Assembly (NCBI GenBank): GCA_028679405.1 | Contig: JAJRBP010000034.1 | Span: 1 to 11,955, forward strand | Direction: 5' to 3' | From: Methanoregulaceae archaeon | GTDB taxonomy: Archaea > Halobacteriota > Methanomicrobia > Methanomicrobiales > Methanospirillaceae | Length of the DNA stretch: 11,955 nucleotides | Notes under the pieces: model-generated | Told to the model about the DNA's origin: nothing | Database searches by the model: none | The model's input: the letters and a program-made list of their open reading frames with translations, nothing else | Made by a program: the position numbers and the translations under genes | In this document: piece after piece, positions 2,119 through 11,525 of the stretch | Layout of the letters: each line of letters opens with the position of its first letter | Numbering within the stretch: the stretch's first letter is position 1

Positions 2119-5100
2119 ATGACAGAGGAACTGGACAAGGTAATTGACCGGCTCCTCTGCCGGCTTCCGGAGCTCCTCGACAGCTGTTCCGAACACGATA
2201 TTACTACCGATATCTTCGTGAAAAATGCCGACGCGACCCGCTACAGGGAGATACTCCGGGAGATCACTGAAGAAGTCTCCATGATTCGTAAGAGCGGATG
2301 CTCCTGTGGTGACATTGTCGCAGCGATTGAAGCCAGGGAGCGGGCAGGCGACCCGGTTTCCGAAGAGATTGTTCCGGCCCGGGATCTGGTCCCGCTGATC
2401 TGCCCTTCGTTTACAAAAGAGCAGGAGGACCTTATCAGCGAGGCGTGCGATGAATGGTCGGCTGCGGTCGCCCCGGAAGAATCCGTTCCGATGCAGGCGC
2501 GGCTGAGTGGTGCCATCAGGCCGCTGACCCTGGGGGAACTCCTATCCCCCGAGGTCACCCGTATGCAGCGGGTTAAGACTTTTACGATGCTGCAGTCAGC
2601 AGGATTGGGAACCGGTGAGGCCTCCGGTCCTGGACTTGCGAAAGAAGAGGAGATCCTGATCCCGGTCACTGATGACCTGGCAGTATTTTCACGGGAACTT
2701 GACCGGTCGATATTCCGGTTCCTTGCTGCGAACGGTTTTGTTCCGAAACCCAGGTACCCGGGAATGATCTTCCAGGCGCTCGAAGATCTCGGCACAATGC
2801 GGGTTTTGGGAAATACCCCACTCAGGGGATTCCCGCATTTCCAGGGAGTATCCCGGGTCCTCTATGAAGGAGGGAGTACGATGTCCCGGATGGGTGAGCC
2901 CCTTTCAGATGTCCGGAAGTTGTATCACGTCATCCTTGAGGTAACCGCGGGGAGCGATCCTGGACCTCGTATTTCCCCTGAACGGACTGAACTGCTCGCC
3001 GGACATGTCCTGGCGGGATTTATCGCAGAAAGTGGAGGCCTGGATAACCGGGCACGGATCGCGAGGGTCATTGATTTCGTAACCCGGGTCGCAAGCCGGC
3101 CGGACGGGCGGGAAATGCCTGGCCCGGACCGGCTCCGCGCCCTGGGCGAGACCGTGAGCGCACTGGAGCACCTGGCGAGGGTCATTACGGGGGACTATGC
3201 ATGGAGGGCAGTCGCTATGACTCCCGCACCGGGGCATAAAAGGCAGGCGATAGACCTCCGGCCTGAAAGGATGATTTTCCTGTATGATCCGGACTACCTG
3301 GCTTTCCAGACCCGGCCGGCCGCGAGCGCTCTTCTCATGGATGCGTTCTACCAGGCATGGTTCCAGCCCAATCCTGATGCCGATCTCCCACTGCCGGAGG
3401 ATTTACTCTTCCCGCGGCTGACGCGTGCGGTGACCGCTGCCCGTGCCCTGAAACTGGGGACCTCCCTGCATCCCGGGGCACTCCGCTGGTTTGAGAAATT
3501 CCTTGATGAGGAGTACAGCGTAGTGAACCGCCTGGCTGGCACTCCCTCAGTCAGGACACTCCCTCCGGAGGATCAGTTCCTGGAAGGAGTCCTCGCCGAA
3601 GGTCGCATCGGAGGGCCTTCGGGCCTCTTTGTCGACGATTCGGTGAAGGAGGCGCTGGAGGAGACCAGGGATGCAAGAATGGAGGCCGGAGCCACCTGTG
3701 TCCCGGATGGCGAGAGTCTCCGGACAATCAGGGATCGCATCTGGCCGGCACTTCAGCATCTGCGGCACATGGATTCAGGGCCTCTTCCGGATGGACAGAT
3801 AACCACGGGGAGAGCCGGAGGAGGTTTTGGGCCCGAACTCACCCCCGGGGGGAGCGTACGGCGGATGGATACTTCTCTGCCTGGTGCACACCAGCCCGCT
3901 GATGATGCGACGGTGAAAGCTATCGAAGGGAAAGGTCCCAGCCTGCTCGATGACGGCGATGGATTCTCCGTCCCGGGCGGGTCCATGCGAAGGGGAAGTC
4001 CGGCCGGGGGTAACCGGGGAACCGGCCCGATGGAGACCTCTCCCGGATCAGGGGGTAATTCCGATACATCCGGACCCGGGGACGATACATGCGGCATGGG
4101 GACTCCGACAGGGCAGCCGGACGATCCCGGACGTACTGCCGGCGAGATGGTGAAGGCATGTGCCGAGAGCGAAAAGGTTATGAAAACTCTCCTTTCCGCC
4201 CGCGATAAAGAGAACCAGGCAGCGTCCGGCAGCCAGGTGCCAGGAACGGAGGGAGGCGCCGGCAGGGCGGCATCGGCACTGGACGATCTTGCAGGGAAGA
4301 TTGGGGACCTTGCCGGGGAACTTGAAAAGTCAACACGGAGAAGAAGGGATGCCAGGTCACCCGGGCGTGAGACCGGAGGTCGTCCGGGTGGCGGTACGCG
4401 GACAGCGACACGGGAGAAGGCGCTGGACTCGCTTCTCAGGATGTCCGAAAAGATCAGTGAGGCGGCCCGCGAATACCGCAATGCCATCGGGGACATGACA
4501 CGGAAGATGAGGGAAGCCCCGGCCGATCCCGAAACGGCCCGGTCCCGTCTTGGGATGACGGAGAAGGCACTCCAGGACCTCAGGGATGCCAGCGTCGAGT
4601 TCCAGCGGCTCTCCGGGGCTTTCATAGATCGCGGACCCGGGAGGGATGGGGTGAGGGTCCCCCTTCCGGAGAGCGCCGAAGATAACAACCGGGCCGGGGC
4701 TGCGGGTACAAGCCGGAAGCAACGAATGGAACCCTCTTTCCATCCGGTCGCACCGGATGCGGGGAAGGACGAAGAGATGTGGGAAAGCCTCTCCTACTTC
4801 GATGCAAGTTTCGGAGAAGGCGGGGAATCCGATGCCGGAGGACAATCCGCCAGTCAGCACGCAGGCGACAGCGCCGAGATGCGCTACGAGCAGGGGGTAC
4901 ACCTGCTCACCAGGGAGGCCGAGCAGTACCTCTCGGCCATGAAGCAGCGGACGCGAAGCGAATGGGAGACGCTGGATGAGCGTGCCGAACGGATCCGCAG
5001 GGTCGCGCTCCTCGAACTGCACTCGATCAGGCAGGAGGACTATGCCTTGTACCAGCGGTTTTACCAGCCGGTCGCCGGTCTCACCGGTGTCGCAAGGAAG

Positions 5101-5850
5101 AACATCCAGCAGGTCCTCCAGAAGGAGAGGGCGACCCGCGAGCAGACCGAACTGATCACCGGTTCAGATATCGACGAGGAGAACCTGGCCGCGGTCAGGA
5201 CAACGATGCGCATTTTCAAGGAGTCGGCGCGGCAGCCTGATAAAACCCCGTGGTGCCTCTCTCTTCTCATCGATGCAAGCAGCAGCATGCATGACGAGAC
5301 CGTGGCGAAGAAGCTCGAGGCAACTATCCAGGCAGCCATCCTCTTCGGTGAGGCCCTCAACCGGATCGCGGGGATCCGCTTCGAGATCGCCGCATTCGCG
5401 GACACCGAGTATATCCCGCTCAAGCGGTACCAGGACAAGTGGAACCTCCAGCAGGCCTGCTACCTCATCAGGCAGGTTATCCAGGCCTCTGGCGGAACGA
5501 ACGACGTGGGAGCGATCAGCAGCGCCATCGACCGGATGAACCGCTCCAGGGCGGGGACCGGCGCGAACCGGATGATCTTCGTGGTATCGGACGGCCAGTC
5601 AGGTGTCGGAGGGAGGGAGCAGATGATGCGGATACGTTCTGTAAACCGTGAGATCAGGATATTCGGGTGGGGGGTAGGTCCGGACATGGAGAAGATCGAG
5701 TATACCTACAAGCCGTATGGGACGCATGTCAAGGATATTGCGGACCTGCCCCGGTCCCTCGGCGATGTGCTCCGGAGGGAACTCGGCCGGCCTGTGCTGG
5801 CGGGATTCGGGGATGAGAAAGGATCGGGAGAGACTGCATGCACGAACTGA
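2119..5850 (+). CDS. Large VWA-domain protein (CobT-like C-terminus), partner of the downstream tandem AAA+ ATPase
   Basis: Probable metal-binding adaptor of an AAA+/VWA remodelling machine in the cytoplasm; no signal peptide or membrane segment is visible. The ATG is preceded by GGGGAG at 2107-2112, six bases away. Architecture of the 1243 residues: a mostly helical region of unknown family at 1-545; a Gly/Pro/Ser/Asp-rich, probably disordered linker at about 549-677; charged helices likely to form coiled coils at about 678-744 and 764-838; another flexible stretch; a helical segment at about 921-1027 resembling the part that precedes the VWA domain in CobT-type proteins (ITGSDIDEENL); and the VWA domain at about 1046-1235. 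The MIDAS metal site looks complete: D1052-x-S1054-x-S1056, T1127 in GGTND and D1158 in VVSDGQS. The stop lies 13 bases inside the AAA+ gene, so the two are probably translated together. The VWA assignment is secure; a biological client is not evident. Magnesium chelatase/CobT is an alternative, but no chelatase large subunit is nearby. Confidence 0.93.
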   Translation: MTEELDKVIDRLLCRLPELLDSCSEHDITTDIFVKNADATRYREILREITEEVSMIRKSGCSCGDIVAAIEARERAGDPVSEEIVPARDLVPLICPSFTKEQEDLISEACDEWSAAVAPEESVPMQARLSGAIRPLTLGELLSPEVTRMQRVKTFTMLQSAGLGTGEASGPGLAKEEEILIPVTDDLAVFSRELDRSIFRFLAANGFVPKPRYPGMIFQALEDLGTMRVLGNTPLRGFPHFQGVSRVLYEGGSTMSRMGEPLSDVRKLYHVILEVTAGSDPGPRISPERTELLAGHVLAGFIAESGGLDNRARIARVIDFVTRVASRPDGREMPGPDRLRALGETVSALEHLARVITGDYAWRAVAMTPAPGHKRQAIDLRPERMIFLYDPDYLAFQTRPAASALLMDAFYQAWFQPNPDADLPLPEDLLFPRLTRAVTAARALKLGTSLHPGALRWFEKFLDEEYSVVNRLAGTPSVRTLPPEDQFLEGVLAEGRIGGPSGLFVDDSVKEALEETRDARMEAGATCVPDGESLRTIRDRIWPALQHLRHMDSGPLPDGQITTGRAGGGFGPELTPGGSVRRMDTSLPGAHQPADDATVKAIEGKGPSLLDDGDGFSVPGGSMRRGSPAGGNRGTGPMETSPGSGGNSDTSGPGDDTCGMGTPTGQPDDPGRTAGEMVKACAESEKVMKTLLSARDKENQAASGSQVPGTEGGAGRAASALDDLAGKIGDLAGELEKSTRRRRDARSPGRETGGRPGGGTRTATREKALDSLLRMSEKISEAAREYRNAIGDMTRKMREAPADPETARSRLGMTEKALQDLRDASVEFQRLSGAFIDRGPGRDGVRVPLPESAEDNNRAGAAGTSRKQRMEPSFHPVAPDAGKDEEMWESLSYFDASFGEGGESDAGGQSASQHAGDSAEMRYEQGVHLLTREAEQYLSAMKQRTRSEWETLDERAERIRRVALLELHSIRQEDYALYQRFYQPVAGLTGVARKNIQQVLQKERATREQTELITGSDIDEENLAAVRTTMRIFKESARQPDKTPWCLSLLIDASSSMHDETVAKKLEATIQAAILFGEALNRIAGIRFEIAAFADTEYIPLKRYQDKWNLQQACYLIRQVIQASGGTNDVGAISSAIDRMNRSRAGTGANRMIFVVSDGQSGVGGREQMMRIRSVNREIRIFGWGVGPDMEKIEYTYKPYGTHVKDIADLPRSLGDVLRRELGRPVLAGFGDEKGSGETACTN

Positions 5851-8800
5851 GCGGATTCGGATCATTGAACGTGGCAGAGAAGAGACAGGGCAGGCGGGTC
5901 CAGGTTGCGGTCCGGTTGTCCGTAGGGGATATCGAGATCCCCGCGCCGAAAGACCCTCACCTCCTTCTCGTCCCTGAGAACGTCGCAAACCTCCGGAAGA
6001 TGTGGGACGCGCTCCGCATGCCCACGCGGAACAACCTCCTGATCACCGGCGAATCCGGGTCGGGGAAGACGACCCTCGTCCGTTACCTCGGGGAGATCTA
6101 CCGCGAAGTACTCGCAAAGAAGGCCGAGGGGGAGAGGGACCCGGCCCTTGCAGCCCATATGAAAGCCCGGGCATCCGCGTTCCAGACAAGGATCCTCTCA
6201 TTCCATGAGAACCTCCGGAGATCAGACATCACCGAGCGGAGGCACTACGGGGAGACCGGGGAGGAGAAGACCGGCTGGACGATGAGCGATGTGATGGAGG
6301 GGGTGATTGCCGGCGACTGGAATATCCTCTCCGAGATCAACCGGACCGGCGAAGACGTCTGGGCAGAGTTCAACGACCCGCTCGAGAACAAGGCAAAGAC
6401 ACTCCACCAGCGGGTGATCCGCGGTCATCCGGACAGCAGGTTCATTGCGACCGTGAACCCGTTCAAGAGTGAAGGGAGGGGGATCTACGAGGGCAAGGTG
6501 ATGAGCGGCGAGTTCATGAACCGCTTCACGAACAAAGTGCACCTCAGGTACCTCCCCCCGGACCAGGAGTTCGAGGTACTCGCGGACTATGGTCCTGATG
6601 TCGGACCAGGGGTGATCGACCGGTTGATCGGCCTCGCGACCGACATCCGCAGGGACTACTCCGAAGAACACGGGGTCGTCCCGTTCCCGGTGACGACACG
6701 GGCCCTCATACGGATGGTCCGGCACCTCCAGCGGTTCCCTGGTGACGTGCGATCCCTTCGTTCCCTGTTCTGGCGGAAGGCTTACTGGCTCGATGACCAG
6801 ATCCATCCCCCGCTCGCGAGGAGGCTTGTTGAGGACCTGCTCGACCTCCATGATATCGTGGATTCGCCACATTCAGGAAGGGAGAAAACCAGGGTCGTCC
6901 GGGACACCGGTGAAGGGAAGCCGGTTCTCAGGATCGGGACGGTCGAACACCCCCTCGGTACGGGAGGCAGTTATGTTCCCGACACCGTGATAGAGGAGGT
7001 CGACAGGAACATCGAGGACCTCGAATGGATCGCAAAAGACATGGTCCTCTCGGAAAATGTCCTCCTAATCGGCGAGGCCGGCGTCGGGAAGAACAAGCTC
7101 GAGAGCTACCTTGCCCACCTTCTCAGGGCCAACCTTCTCGTGATCGGCATGAGCGGGGAGACAAGGGTATCGGACCTCCTCACCTACCGGAGTTTCGGGG
7201 AGGAGGAGGCGGGGAAGACCGGGGATACGGCGACCCTCGGACTCAGGGCCCTTACCGACTCCGATCAGCTCTGGATGATCGTGCTTGACGAGGCGAACAA
7301 GGCCCAGCCCGGGGTCCTCGTCTCGTTCAACGATCTCCTCCAGGACCGGGTTGTCCGGCTGCCGGGTGGGGCGGAAAGTCCGGTCAGGGCCTCGATATTC
7401 GTGAACATCAACCCGAACCGGCCCCCCTACGAGGTGAACGACTTCTCCTTCGAGTTCATGGACCGGTTCTCCATTCACACGATCGTGCACCTCCCGACCG
7501 ACCAGGCCGTGGAAGTACTCCGGAAGAAATACCCGGATGCGGACGAGGATTTCGTCAGGGACATAGTGGAAGGCTACTATGCACTTCACCCCCTCTATAG
7601 TGGCGGAGTCCTCTTCGAGCCTGTCACGATGCGGAACGAGGAAGCGGCGATCGAGCGCGGGCTCCAGTACCGGGATAACGCCTCCAACCTGATCGACCTG
7701 ATATGTTCCTGTTATGGTGCCCGGGACGCCCGCGAACTCGATGCAGTCCGGGGCGCCCTCCAGGCCGCAGGATTCGACAGGAGCGTGCTTCCAGGTACAG
7801 GAGCCCTCGATGCGTTGCGGGAGTCGTGGGAGCAGGACCGGGGGAGCGAGGAGAAGGCATTCTCCCTCGCAGCCACGTACCGGGCTATCGGGAAGCCGAC
7901 GTCATCTCTCCAAATCCTCTCCACGATGATCACCGGGGACTCAGAGCGGGACTGGGTCTTCCATCTCGGGAACGCGCAGATCCTGCTTGATTCCGACAAG
8001 GCCGGCGATGCCCTCGCTGAATTGCGGAAGGGATTCTCACCTGGAAGGGTGGTCCGTATGGGGGACCAGTCAAGGTACCTGGTCATCCGGCCTTCGGTCA
8101 GGATCACTCAGGGCCAACCCCGGATCTCGATCGAGGCGGCGAAAATCAGCACCGGCTGTGCCTCGCTCATCATGTCCGCCGGGGCGAGCCCGTTACGCCC
8201 GGCTTTCCGGCGGGCATCCGGAGAATTCCTCCTGACTTTTACCGACACGGATCACGGACTGGCAGTGTATGAGCAGGGTATTGATCAGCAATCCGCATCC
8301 CGGGATGACCGCCCCGTCCTTTCGCAGGATCAGGAGGGCTGTCTGCGGTGTGAAGCGAGCGCCGGGAATGTGCCGCTGGGAAGACTCGTCGAAGAATACC
8401 TGGCCCTTTCGCCATCAGGATCCGATTTCAGACAGCAATTCTGCAGGCTCCCTTCCCCGCCGTGGACCGGGATGTCAGTTGCAGGAGAGCAGATATGCCG
8501 TACGGTAACGGGGGCAGGCTGGACCATCCGGGCTGTCCTCGACAGCAGGACCGGGACCTGGGCCGTCGAGATTCTCGCAGGTGGAGCAGGACCGGGGCGC
8601 GTACCGTTCAGAATCAACTGGACAGGGAGCAAAGGTGGTCCGGGTCAGATCTCTCTGGAATCCTCAAATGGTGGAACATGTGCGGTACCCGCACCCGCCG
8701 ACCCGTTCGTCCACCTCGGATTCAGCGTGCTTAACCGTACGCTCTTCATTGTCCTTGCGGACGAGGTCGTGTCAGAACTGCACACAAAGGGTATACCTGA

Positions 8801-10031
8801 TAAAGGGGACGCTGAGGGTGTCGGATGGCGAATTCTCGCTGCTTCCGGATATTGGCCCGGAGTTCTCCGGCAACTCCACTCCGTACTTTCCTTCCGCGTA
8901 CAGGAAATATTCAGGTACGCCCGCCCATTGCCCGGGTATACCGGCGCGGGGGCAGGCGACGTTGTGTATTCCATAGAGGAGGACTCGACAACCTCACCTG
9001 CCATACTCGAAGACATCGATGGGATGGGGCCCGGGATCTCAGACCTTAGTATAAGCGGCGAAAAAGCCGAAAGGGAAGGAAAAGGGGCATCGGACCGGTC
9101 GAAGTACAGGTTCGTAATCCCGTTCGCCCAGCTGGACGCCTGTGAAGAGAAACAGGCTGCAGCCTTCTCCCCCGATACCCAGGAATACCTGCGGGAGGTC
9201 CGGGGGTACCTTGCCCGTGCATTCTTCCAGAAGGACCAGCCCCGCGACCTTGCGTGGGAAGTGAAAGCCCGCGCGATCCTCGCCGGTTTTGTACCTTTCG
9301 CCGGACCTGTCGTGCCCGCAGCCGGGAATTCCCTGCTCAGCCGCGGGGATATCCTCGTCAGGACACGTGAAGGCGAGGACCATCACGATCCCACGAGGTC
9401 GGTGCTTGTAGTCGACTTCGTCGGCGAAGAAGCGGACAAGCCGGGGGGAGGTCGTTCTCCGCGGGTTCGCGGGTTCTGGCTCGCAGAGAAAAACCCGGTG
9501 GCAACAGGGTATCTTGACGAGATCGGGGACCGGTTCAGCCTGATCGCAGTTGCCGGGGACGATACGCAGGGACGTATCGTGCGCCGGCTGGCAGAGGCAT
9601 GCCTGGGATCCGGGCACCCGTGGAAGTATTCACGCTCCGGGACCGCAGTCGATCCGGTGATACGGTTCGAGTGCAGCAGCCTGGTCGTCGAGCACCGCCC
9701 GATGTACCGGCAGCTCAGGCTCGAGGCCTGCCATGATGACAGAACCGGGGCGCTCTCGATCGAAGAGACAGGGTATCCGGCCGGGTCAGCGGTCGTTGAT
9801 ACCGGAGGTCGTGCGGTAACCAGGTGGCAGGGATCGGCGCTGGTGGATATCGCGTACGAGCCGGTTATGGAGGAGATCAGGGTAATCCTTGGGGATGACC
9901 TCGCGAAGTACCTTCAGGGGAGCGGGGTGATCGATGAGATGCCGTTCGCCGGGTCCGGGGTAATCATCAGGTTCATCCCCAGGTCAGTGGCAGAGGAACA
10001 CTGTAGTGACGAAAGCAGTGTGATCGGGTAA
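5838..10031 (+). CDS. Tandem MoxR/dynein-type AAA+ ATPase with TPR-like segment and long uncharacterised C-terminus (VWA8-like)
   Basis: Probable ATP-driven motor paired with the upstream VWA protein, whose last 13 bases it overlaps. GGGAG at 5826-5830 lies seven bases before the ATG. AAA1 (about 25-340): P-loop GESGSGKT 71-78, Walker B-like ILSEINR 163-169 with Ser165 where Asp is expected, sensor-1 Asn207 in ATVNP, and Arg229 in FMNRF. Its lid contains YGPDV and VRHLQRFP. AAA2 (about 375-640): P-loop GEAGVGKN 412-419 with Asn in place of the usual Thr/Ser, Walker B VLDEANK with D484/E485, sensor Asn525, and Arg543 in FMDRF. Residues 674-738 look like two TPR-type helix pairs. A beta-rich, variable region follows at about 740-1075, then an unrecognised C-terminal region at about 1088-1385. 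MoxR proteins normally have one AAA+ domain of about 330 residues. From memory, the GVGKNK P-loop and the lid motifs resemble eukaryotic VWA8. The AAA+ calls are secure; the VWA8 link and the function are inferences. Confidence 0.94.
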   Translation: MHELSGFGSLNVAEKRQGRRVQVAVRLSVGDIEIPAPKDPHLLLVPENVANLRKMWDALRMPTRNNLLITGESGSGKTTLVRYLGEIYREVLAKKAEGERDPALAAHMKARASAFQTRILSFHENLRRSDITERRHYGETGEEKTGWTMSDVMEGVIAGDWNILSEINRTGEDVWAEFNDPLENKAKTLHQRVIRGHPDSRFIATVNPFKSEGRGIYEGKVMSGEFMNRFTNKVHLRYLPPDQEFEVLADYGPDVGPGVIDRLIGLATDIRRDYSEEHGVVPFPVTTRALIRMVRHLQRFPGDVRSLRSLFWRKAYWLDDQIHPPLARRLVEDLLDLHDIVDSPHSGREKTRVVRDTGEGKPVLRIGTVEHPLGTGGSYVPDTVIEEVDRNIEDLEWIAKDMVLSENVLLIGEAGVGKNKLESYLAHLLRANLLVIGMSGETRVSDLLTYRSFGEEEAGKTGDTATLGLRALTDSDQLWMIVLDEANKAQPGVLVSFNDLLQDRVVRLPGGAESPVRASIFVNINPNRPPYEVNDFSFEFMDRFSIHTIVHLPTDQAVEVLRKKYPDADEDFVRDIVEGYYALHPLYSGGVLFEPVTMRNEEAAIERGLQYRDNASNLIDLICSCYGARDARELDAVRGALQAAGFDRSVLPGTGALDALRESWEQDRGSEEKAFSLAATYRAIGKPTSSLQILSTMITGDSERDWVFHLGNAQILLDSDKAGDALAELRKGFSPGRVVRMGDQSRYLVIRPSVRITQGQPRISIEAAKISTGCASLIMSAGASPLRPAFRRASGEFLLTFTDTDHGLAVYEQGIDQQSASRDDRPVLSQDQEGCLRCEASAGNVPLGRLVEEYLALSPSGSDFRQQFCRLPSPPWTGMSVAGEQICRTVTGAGWTIRAVLDSRTGTWAVEILAGGAGPGRVPFRINWTGSKGGPGQISLESSNGGTCAVPAPADPFVHLGFSVLNRTLFIVLADEVVSELHTKGIPDKGDAEGVGWRILAASGYWPGVLRQLHSVLSFRVQEIFRYARPLPGYTGAGAGDVVYSIEEDSTTSPAILEDIDGMGPGISDLSISGEKAEREGKGASDRSKYRFVIPFAQLDACEEKQAAAFSPDTQEYLREVRGYLARAFFQKDQPRDLAWEVKARAILAGFVPFAGPVVPAAGNSLLSRGDILVRTREGEDHHDPTRSVLVVDFVGEEADKPGGGRSPRVRGFWLAEKNPVATGYLDEIGDRFSLIAVAGDDTQGRIVRRLAEACLGSGHPWKYSRSGTAVDPVIRFECSSLVVEHRPMYRQLRLEACHDDRTGALSIEETGYPAGSAVVDTGGRAVTRWQGSALVDIAYEPVMEEIRVILGDDLAKYLQGSGVIDEMPFAGSGVIIRFIPRSVAEEHCSDESSVIG

Positions 10032-10123: not shown

Positions 10124-10687
10124 CTATTTTATGCCGGAAAACCTGTCAGACATTCCAAGTATCCTGTCACGCATCTCCCAGGACTTTATGACACCCCGGA
10201 CGGGAATTTCCCCGGTGCCTTCCTTGTCCCCCACGAGTCCGCCTGAGAGGATGAGGAGAGTCGAGAGTCCGAAAAGCCGCGATACCGGACCCTGCACAAC
10301 CCTGACCTCTGTAATTGTCTCGTAAGGGATTACTGCGATCTTCCGGAATAATACCCCGCGTTCGAACGTGAGAGCATCCTTCGTGAACCGGTATGTCATC
10401 GACTGCCAGTACCTGCGGATCCAGACGATAGCGAAAACTATCGAAAGCAGGACGATTACGGTGATCTCGAGAGCAATTGGCGATTTTTCAGCCAGGATCA
10501 TTGGAATCAGCCACCAGAAGATTCCGCCCCAGACGAGGACGAGGAGGTATACCATATAGAGGAGGCGGAGCCTTGGCGAGGGGCGAAACTCCCAGTCCCC
10601 CGGGGGGTTCCCACGAGGAAATCCACCAGTTGGTTGTTTTGCGCCGGCTTCCCTGGATTCCGACATGACGTCCCGGGGGTTATGCAC
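10124..10687 (-). CDS. Small membrane protein with bacterial-type PH domain (YdbS/YdbT-like)
   Basis: 187-residue predicted membrane protein of unknown function. After a polar, Pro/Gly-rich N-terminus (1-38) come two hydrophobic segments at about 42-65 (rich in Trp, Leu, Tyr, Val) and 72-90, separated by a short loop. A soluble domain at about 94-180 contains YRFTKDALTFERGVLF, IPYETITEVRVVQGPVSR and LFGLSTLLI, a pattern typical of bacterial PH (bPH2) domains, in which two membrane helices precede the PH fold. The start is uncertain. GTG at 10687 has GGAG four bases upstream and overlaps the methyltransferase stop by eight bases, which fits coupled translation. ATG at 10666 (180 residues) lacks a clear ribosome binding site but is a more common start codon. 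It is the last gene of the minus-strand operon. bPH2 proteins are often linked to membranes or envelope stress, but nothing here specifies a role. Confidence 0.85.
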   Translation of the reverse strand: MHNPRDVMSESREAGAKQPTGGFPRGNPPGDWEFRPSPRLRLLYMVYLLVLVWGGIFWWLIPMILAEKSPIALEITVIVLLSIVFAIVWIRRYWQSMTYRFTKDALTFERGVLFRKIAVIPYETITEVRVVQGPVSRLFGLSTLLILSGGLVGDKEGTGEIPVRGVIKSWEMRDRILGMSDRFSGIK

Positions 10688-11525
10688 CCTTCTCCGTCAG
10701 GCATACCCACCGGTCATAGAGCGGGTCTGCCGGGTTCTCGAAGATCTCGCATCCCCGCCCGACCCACCCGGCGACCAGCCGGACCTCGGGCTCCGTCCCG
10801 ACCGTGATAAGAGCGTTGTCCGTGAGAGAGAGGAAGGAGCGGGTGATAGTCTCCCAGAGTTTCTGGTTGAACTGGTTTATCTCCCCGAACATGAGGCCGA
10901 TCCCGTAGGGAGCATGGGGCACGTACTGATCTGCCCGGGTCGCATCGATGCACATGGTCTCCTCCGGGGCGAGCCGGCCTGTTGCGAGCCCGAGCGAGAG
11001 GAGGGAGGCATCGTTGTCGTACGAGAGCGGTGAATACCTCAGTCGGCGCAGGACGTGCGACCCGACGCCTGAACCGCATCCGCAGTCGAGGCACACTCCC
11101 CCCGGGAGGTCTCCCCATACACGCCGGACCAGTCCTTCGACCATTCCCGGTCTGGAGGAATTCATGTCCTCGATGGCCGGGGCAACTGTCGAGAGAATTT
11201 CCCTGCTGAAATACTCCCGTACAGAAGCAGCCCAGGTGGCCCGGTCCTCCTGGTAGATCTCGCCAAGCGTCTCCTCGAAGCGGTCGAGGACATTTATACT
11301 GGGTTTTCTCAGGTGAAACGTCCCTGCGATCCAGGTCTCGCCATCCCCCAGGGCGAGGGCAACCGGGGTCTCCTCCTCATCGATGAGCAGTCTCCCCTGG
11401 TCCCCGGGCAGCTCTGTCAGGGCCTCCGTGAACCTCATCTCGGTGAGTGAGGCAAAAGACGGTTCTATAAACCTCAGGTTCGCGGTCCCAAGAATTTCCG
11501 CGGCTGTTGCGATATGGGCCATCAT
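10680..11525 (-). CDS. Class I SAM-dependent methyltransferase, substrate unknown
   Basis: 281-residue cytoplasmic protein. The Rossmann-type SAM-binding core begins near residue 143: motif I LDCGCGSG at 146-153 is the glycine-rich loop, and the acidic YDND at 169-172 fits the residue that contacts the ribose of SAM. Further core segments are CIDATRADQ at 192-200 and GLMFGEINQFNQ at 210-221. The first 140 residues are not part of the methyltransferase core: they look like a small alpha/beta domain (1-70) followed by helices, and may recognise the substrate. The start ATG overlaps the apgM stop in an ATGA arrangement, so translation is probably coupled; a second ATG follows immediately at 11522. 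A GGTG two bases before the ATG is a poor ribosome binding site, which supports coupling. The fold is clear, but I cannot assign protein, RNA or small-molecule methylation. Confidence 0.88.
   Translation of the reverse strand: MMAHIATAAEILGTANLRFIEPSFASLTEMRFTEALTELPGDQGRLLIDEEETPVALALGDGETWIAGTFHLRKPSINVLDRFEETLGEIYQEDRATWAASVREYFSREILSTVAPAIEDMNSSRPGMVEGLVRRVWGDLPGGVCLDCGCGSGVGSHVLRRLRYSPLSYDNDASLLSLGLATGRLAPEETMCIDATRADQYVPHAPYGIGLMFGEINQFNQKLWETITRSFLSLTDNALITVGTEPEVRLVAGWVGRGCEIFENPADPLYDRWVCLTEKGA

Follow-up and report, generated by a model that had tools for sequence, protein, structure and literature searches.

A linked VWA and tandem-AAA+ gene pair of methane-producing archaea and its distant kinship with VWA8

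Is the linked pair of very large genes that some methane-producing archaea carry, one for a VWA protein and one for a tandem-AAA+ protein, a VWA8 cut in two, or is it something else? One such pair lies in the window, the whole stretch of 11,955 nucleotides of contig JAJRBP010000034.1 (Methanoregulaceae archaeon) that was analyzed here. As far as sequence can tell, the pair looks like a family of its own, distantly related to VWA8 in its AAA modules, rather than a divided VWA8. A first-pass annotation had taken it for a split VWA8. What stands of that reading is that the AAA modules group with those of VWA8 in trees, and a VWA8-related two-subunit machine is supported; one-to-one orthology of the modules was not recovered, and the VWA domain is nearer to other archaeal VWA domains. 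VWA8 itself, in the part of PMC8517341 available to us, consists of three AAA modules and then a C-terminal VWA domain, in agreement with the single-chain layout given in that annotation, and is tied there to a human developmental syndrome. Open reading frames and Pfam matches confirm that a 1243-residue VWA protein overlaps by 13 bases a 1397-residue protein with two AAA+ modules:

2119..5850, + strand: gene of the VWA protein, 1243 residues (open reading frame, PF00092, 37 other family proteins)
5838..10031, + strand: gene of the tandem-AAA+ protein, 1397 residues (open reading frame, AAA_5, 32 other family proteins)
5838..5850, + strand: overlap of the VWA stop with the AAA start, 13 nt (stop at +10 from the ATG)
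5910..6872, + strand: AAA module 1, residues ~25-345 (motifs, alignment)
6960..7757, + strand: AAA module 2, residues ~375-640 (motifs, AAA_5 at 407-544)
7758..10028, + strand: C-terminal region of the AAA protein, residues 641-1397 (alignment, domain scans)
4891..5793, + strand: conserved C-terminal module of the VWA protein, a pre-VWA segment plus VWA (alignment, Pfam VWA)

Relation of the modules to VWA8

Besides the window's own chain and 32 further family proteins, the AAA-chain search returned one protein only, VWA8 (E 2.5e-19); the search admitted chains of 0.55-1.75 times the query length, limits that excluded MoxR proteins as too short and midasin as too long. BLASTP aligned the chain collinearly with modules 2 and 3 of VWA8, the rows of which are metazoan by their source names. 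Both AAA modules grouped with those of VWA8 and of an archaeal giant protein in trees of 65 rows (support 97/85), 39 rows (97/93) and 38 rows (96/94). RavA and GvpN were omitted from the two smaller trees for their long branches, and VWA8 module 1 was omitted from the smallest. In the 38-row tree, the group stood apart from MoxR, NorQ, CobS-like and haloarchaeal ternary modules and from one midasin module, a partial one present in this tree alone, which sat on a long branch beside MoxR (91/90). Approximately unbiased (AU) tests, for which the groups were named after the tree had been seen, rejected the joining of the family with the haloarchaeal ternary (p 0.0042), NorQ (p 0.0076) and CobS-like (p 0.0115) modules and with the midasin module (p 0.0155). 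The GKN form of the P-loop was read in 32 of 32 family rows, 10 of 10 VWA8 rows and 1 of 63 readable other modules, the last figure coming from a non-random sample of 65 modules from fetched loci (family loci excluded, 2 without a readable Walker A), many of which are best matches and in which overlapping loci may repeat one module. In the reading by pattern that gave the VWA8 count, family row P0004 lacked module 1, several VWA8 rows lacked module 1 or 2, and one MoxR reference failed the pattern.

A true split VWA8 would mean that modules 1 and 2 are VWA8 modules 2 and 3, that the two VWA domains correspond, and that everything descends from one ancestral protein. The collinear alignment argues for this, as do the common GVGKNK motif and the same order of sites, an intact Walker A followed by GKN. 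The profile of module 2 had VWA8 module 3 as its best match (113.5 over 264 columns, then the giant at 101), and the AU tests did not reject module 2 with VWA8 module 3 (p 0.414 and 0.313) or module 1 with VWA8 module 2 (p 0.093). However, neither pair was recovered in the trees. No VWA8 module came out as sister of either window module, and the modules of each protein tended, with moderate support, to group among themselves, those of the family at 83/81 (56/79 in a later tree) and those of VWA8 at 93/91 (84/86 in the later tree). Pairings with the giant's two kinds of module gave p 0.212 for module 1 with kind B and p 0.371 for module 2 with kind A. The first-pass annotation had also quoted two VWA8-like motifs, GVGKNK, which does lie at residues 415-420, and YGPDV..VRHLQ; the letters are correct, but in VWA8 (P0034) both motifs are in module 3, whereas here they are in modules 2 and 1, respectively.

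The rest of the two proteins points away from a split. The VWA module scored 82 against the VWA of an archaeal pair labelled f7, 80 against that of the giant, 48 against CobT-like proteins and 38 against VWA8, so that the VWA of VWA8 is not the nearest, and the whole VWA protein had no significant BLASTP match to VWA8. In one of the VWA comparisons, the pattern retained 15 of the 17 VWA rows. The C-terminal region of the AAA protein had no profile match to the middle region of VWA8, the first module of VWA8 has no counterpart in the pair, and the gene order is reversed. A true split of VWA8 is, in our estimate, unlikely.

The profile of module 1 was best matched by a plasmid CobS-like ATPase (154.7), followed by haloarchaeal ternary modules (112.5), the giant (105), VWA8 module 3 (78), MoxR (76) and VWA8 module 2 (74); all these module scores, like the VWA scores above, were obtained with profiles built from 1 to 15 rows and can be compared only loosely. 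Together with the CobT-like score of the VWA module (47.9 before rounding), this would suit a machine that inserts a cofactor or metal, of the kind represented by CobST, CbbQ-CbbO or NorQ-NorD. The AU values given above, however, place the family outside the CobS and NorQ/CbbQ groups, although module 1 alone joins the CobS-like group with p 0.136, and the neighboring genes vary between loci. We regard an insertion machine as very unlikely.

Pairing, neighbors and conservation

Among 232 genomes of the order, the profile of the VWA protein and that of the AAA C-terminal region matched an identical set of 8, the window's included and all in the window's family; across the phylum, the latter profile matched 2 of 392 genomes sampled. 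The two genes stay paired, as expected in the first-pass annotation: they are adjacent in 8 of 8 genomes, the identity of which with the window and loci L009-L015 was judged from coordinates. The VWA gene is immediately 5' of the AAA gene, on one contig, in seven loci; in the eighth, the VWA contig continues into AAA residues 1-178 and then ends. The VWA stop is at +10 from the AAA ATG in all seven loci read, the match coordinates of the eighth imply an identical 13-nt overlap, and by eye a purine-rich stretch precedes the ATG. In survey A2, four candidates were scored per genome, and the f7 tandem pair described below did not show. Chance open reading frames are ruled out by the homologues found for both chains. 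None of the NCBIfam models reached its cut-off for either protein among the matches listed.

The window's four other genes had no tblastn match (E 1e-3) in the seven other loci, and no third gene was common to the seven loci compared, the flanks of which vary in length. Since the neighbors are not kept across loci, no third component is visible, which is what the first-pass annotation had noted. Several flanking genes are common to L009 and L015 and to L011 and L012, with one further match between L011 and L014. The window's own neighbors are a DEAD/DEAH helicase at 1-1875 with partial similarity to Hel308, far under the Hel308 cut-offs; a bPH_2 protein at 10124-10687 (- strand) and a weakly methyltransferase-like protein at 10680-11525 (- strand), neither matched in the seven other loci; and a phosphoglycerate-mutase-like gene beside the pair.

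AAA_5 matched the AAA protein in 3 stretches (91.5 bits in all), with a few other P-loop models above cut-off. Module 1 has the Walker A motif GESGSGKT, the Walker B motif LSEINR, an Arg-finger-like NRF and a lid with YGPDV at residues 251-255 and VRHLQ at 294-298 (within VRHLQRFP), and module 2 has GEAGVGKNK, VLDEANK, the sensor NINPN and an Arg-finger-like DRF. GESGSGKT was found in 25 of 28 readable rows, and the Walker B Asp of module 1 is replaced by Ser in 29 of 29. In module 2, Asn takes the place of the Walker A Thr/Ser (GVGKNK in 31 of 32 rows, GTGKNT in 1 of 32) and the Walker B DE is intact in 33 of 33. Judged by these motifs, the two modules depart from the textbook site in complementary ways, one having GKT without the Asp and the other DE with the Asn. 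Identity to five other genomes is 72-76% over the tandem AAA part and 31-37% over the C-terminal region. At its start, the C-terminal region gave weak TPR matches in as many as 3 of 6 members, the window's protein not among them; beyond these the scans showed no known domain. The region was also considered as a fused third component or propeller, which was dropped as no match was found.

The VWA protein has 37 other family members besides the window's own. Rows P0036-P0069 are 40-47% identical to it over 93-100% of its length, and in the comparison with five other genomes it is 42-46% identical, with a near-invariant C-terminal module. Its VWA domain spans residues 1049-1189 (PF00092, 38 bits, cut-off 23.8; VWA_2 matches too) and has a complete metal ion-dependent adhesion site (MIDAS): DASSS at 1052-1056, T1127 in GGTNDVG and D1158 in SDGQSG. 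A strict pattern recognized the first motif in 37 of 38 rows, all but P0072, where DVSGS can be read by eye; the other two motifs are present in 37 of 38, the exception being P0071. Two further regions precede the C-terminal module:

2119..3798, + strand: N-terminal region of the VWA protein, residues 1-560, variable, no known domain (no Pfam match, 35-row alignment)
3799..4890, + strand: low-conservation linker (alignment A3)

The N-terminal region matched a region of P0072 by profile (score 343). In P0072, labelled Omnitrophota, residues 131-289 match a subtilase domain (39.1 bits, cut-off 21.8), with the serine motif GTSYSAP inside the match and, by eye, candidate Asp and His motifs ahead of it; the N-terminal region, with HEIFH, and then the VWA follow. 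This is the only HExxH motif among the 35 aligned N-terminal regions (0 of the 34 others, the window's included), and the N-terminal region had no profile match to the N-terminus of a haloarchaeal vWA protein that contains HELGH. A degenerate zincin was considered for this region and stays unproven, with the motif in one sequence and an empty haloarchaeal comparison.

Could the pair be a conflict (defense) system, in which an AAA+/VWA switch controls an effector as in the MoxR-vWA ternary kind (Kaur et al. 2020)? The sparse distribution, the unconserved neighbors and a conserved motor with fast-evolving ends are consistent with this. The same is true of the subtilase domain in P0072, since about 9% of such systems have a peptidase fused to the vWA according to the part of PMC7159879 available to us, and of the bpMoxR model, which matched module 2 of two relatives below its cut-off and the giant above it (46.4, cut-off 27). 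On the other hand, the seven loci have no third gene in common, PADLOC models gave weak P-loop matches only (best 20.9 bits), scans of viral contigs returned no match, phage matches were weak, and P0072 is a single sequence. A conflict system appears rather unlikely, and we place it second among the readings. The phage matches came from 42 mycobacteriophage records, those listed being all to AAA module 2; with these and the empty scans of viral contigs, a viral origin was rejected. No plasmid kin of the VWA module were found.

A proposed two-subunit machine

The reading that we rank first is that the pair encodes an obligate two-subunit AAA+/VWA machine that remodels a client protein, a family of its own within the AAA group of VWA8. 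We consider it somewhat more probable than its negation. Remodeling or extraction of clients is the role ascribed to midasin, RavA-ViaA and CbbQ-CbbO. Coupled translation across the overlap would yield both subunits together. Three AAA chains would then close into a ring of six modules, a trimeric pseudo-hexamer with the two kinds of site alternating, and the VWA module would dock there, either via its MIDAS or next to it; all of this is a predicted arrangement, with the ring drawn by analogy. The fast-evolving ends would recognize the client, and ATP turnover would remodel or extract it.

The analogy for the ring is the archaeal giant (L051:5775-15560 in genome G002 and L086:2138-12073 in G221), which occurs in a single genus of the window's phylum and has a midasin-like layout. 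It is encoded by one frame in each genome, of 3262 and 3312 residues, and a query with its C-terminal part matched 2 of 294 genomes of the phylum, both of the one genus. Pfam shows six AAA_5 stretches, a C-terminal VWA and a propeller-like stretch below cut-off in the G002 frame; by sequence, the G221 frame agrees with it in the six modules and in the VWA end. Its Walker A motifs alternate between GKD and GKS (or GKT) over three rounds, and its A modules form one group (100/100), as do its B modules (100/100). Most simply, the giant would consist of three successive copies of a two-module unit within one chain, which by analogy suggests a ring of three chains of the window's type.

A third arrangement may be represented by P0031, a partial chain of 1011 residues labelled Omnitrophica, with a VWA end, a hydrophobic stretch and both AAA modules, which appears to be a natural fusion with the VWA first. 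The VWA gene with its two-module AAA gene, this VWA-AAA-AAA fusion and the giant with its C-terminal VWA would be three prokaryotic arrangements of one kind. Tentatively, they may form the prokaryotic branch of the group to which VWA8 belongs, with the two-module unit as ancestral and three copies of it making an alternating ring, as a homotrimer or in one chain, with VWA8 as the eukaryotic descendant; we hold this broader scheme to be possible rather than probable.

Several observations weigh against these proposals. The first-pass annotation had set its reading against ordinary MoxR and CobS clades; both modules lie outside either clade in the trees, which reject an ordinary MoxR-VWA pair, but the joining of the family with MoxR has an AU p of 0.067, above 0.05, and is not rejected, and the AAA tree rests on long branches. 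With both sites altered, ATP hydrolysis could be weak or absent. A housekeeping role does not fit well with so patchy a distribution (8 of 232 genomes). The AAA gene of L015 is broken and falls into two frames (L015:10001-13538, switch near residue 297), which may reflect either sequencing error or decay. Like P0072, P0031 is a single protein from a metagenome-assembled genome; it is partial, and its label could be a binning error. Finally, the Walker B motifs of the giant do not alternate neatly, the four of six read by a loose pattern being LDE, VDE, IEG and VDD.

A prokaryotic two-gene relative of VWA8 would offer separate subunits for purification and would make the cooperation of a MIDAS VWA with an AAA ring directly testable, and the family would supply outgroups to root VWA8. 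VWA8 co-migrates with intermediates of the large mitoribosomal subunit, on which it is proposed to act, in the part of PMC10743472 available to us. The listings of our literature searches held no description of this family; we do not claim that it is absent from print.

Comparison with known systems

VWA8 resembles the pair in the AAA group, the GVGKNK P-loop, the YGPDV..VRHLQ lid and a VWA with MIDAS. It differs in that a single chain holds three AAA modules followed by the VWA, whereas the pair has two modules and the VWA 5' of them, and the VWA8 middle region is unrelated to the C-terminal region of the window's AAA protein. The available part of PMC10743472 counts two AAA domains in VWA8, terms midasin its ortholog and has the AAA and VWA parts of archaea and bacteria in separate proteins.

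The f7 pair of genus g28 (L082:7632-13888 and L085:7553-13883) has a VWA gene directly upstream of a gene for a HEAT-like region and tandem AAA modules. It is similar to the window's pair in this order and in the VWA score. Of its two AAA modules, however, the one included in the tree falls outside the window's group, the N-terminus is HEAT-like (by eye) and the P-loops read GKS or GKT.

Three haloarchaeal plasmid loci (L033, L034 and L042) carry triplets of AAA, vWA and very large genes; those of L033 and L042 adjoin protein-kinase genes, and the HELGH motif mentioned above is that of the L033 vWA protein. Like the pair, these triplets and the MoxR-vWA ternary systems encode AAA and vWA together, and helix-2-insert AAA proteins generally act with vWA partners in the part of PMC7159879 available to us. 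Unlike the pair, they have a single AAA module, the AAA gene first and a large third gene; a third propeller, VMAP or effector component was found neither in the seven loci compared nor in the C-terminal region, which has the weak TPR matches only.

The giant is similar to the family in the group of its AAA modules and in its VWA score of 80, and differs in its single chain of six modules, in GKD instead of GKN and in the propeller-like stretch. By sequence, the best match of the AAA part among solved structures was midasin (profile E 4.6e-29), and the search found no VWA8 among them. Midasin (Rea1) combines six AAA modules and a VWA in one chain of over 4700 residues, whereas the pair has two modules; what they have in common is an AAA ring, predicted in the case of the pair, and a VWA domain with a MIDAS.

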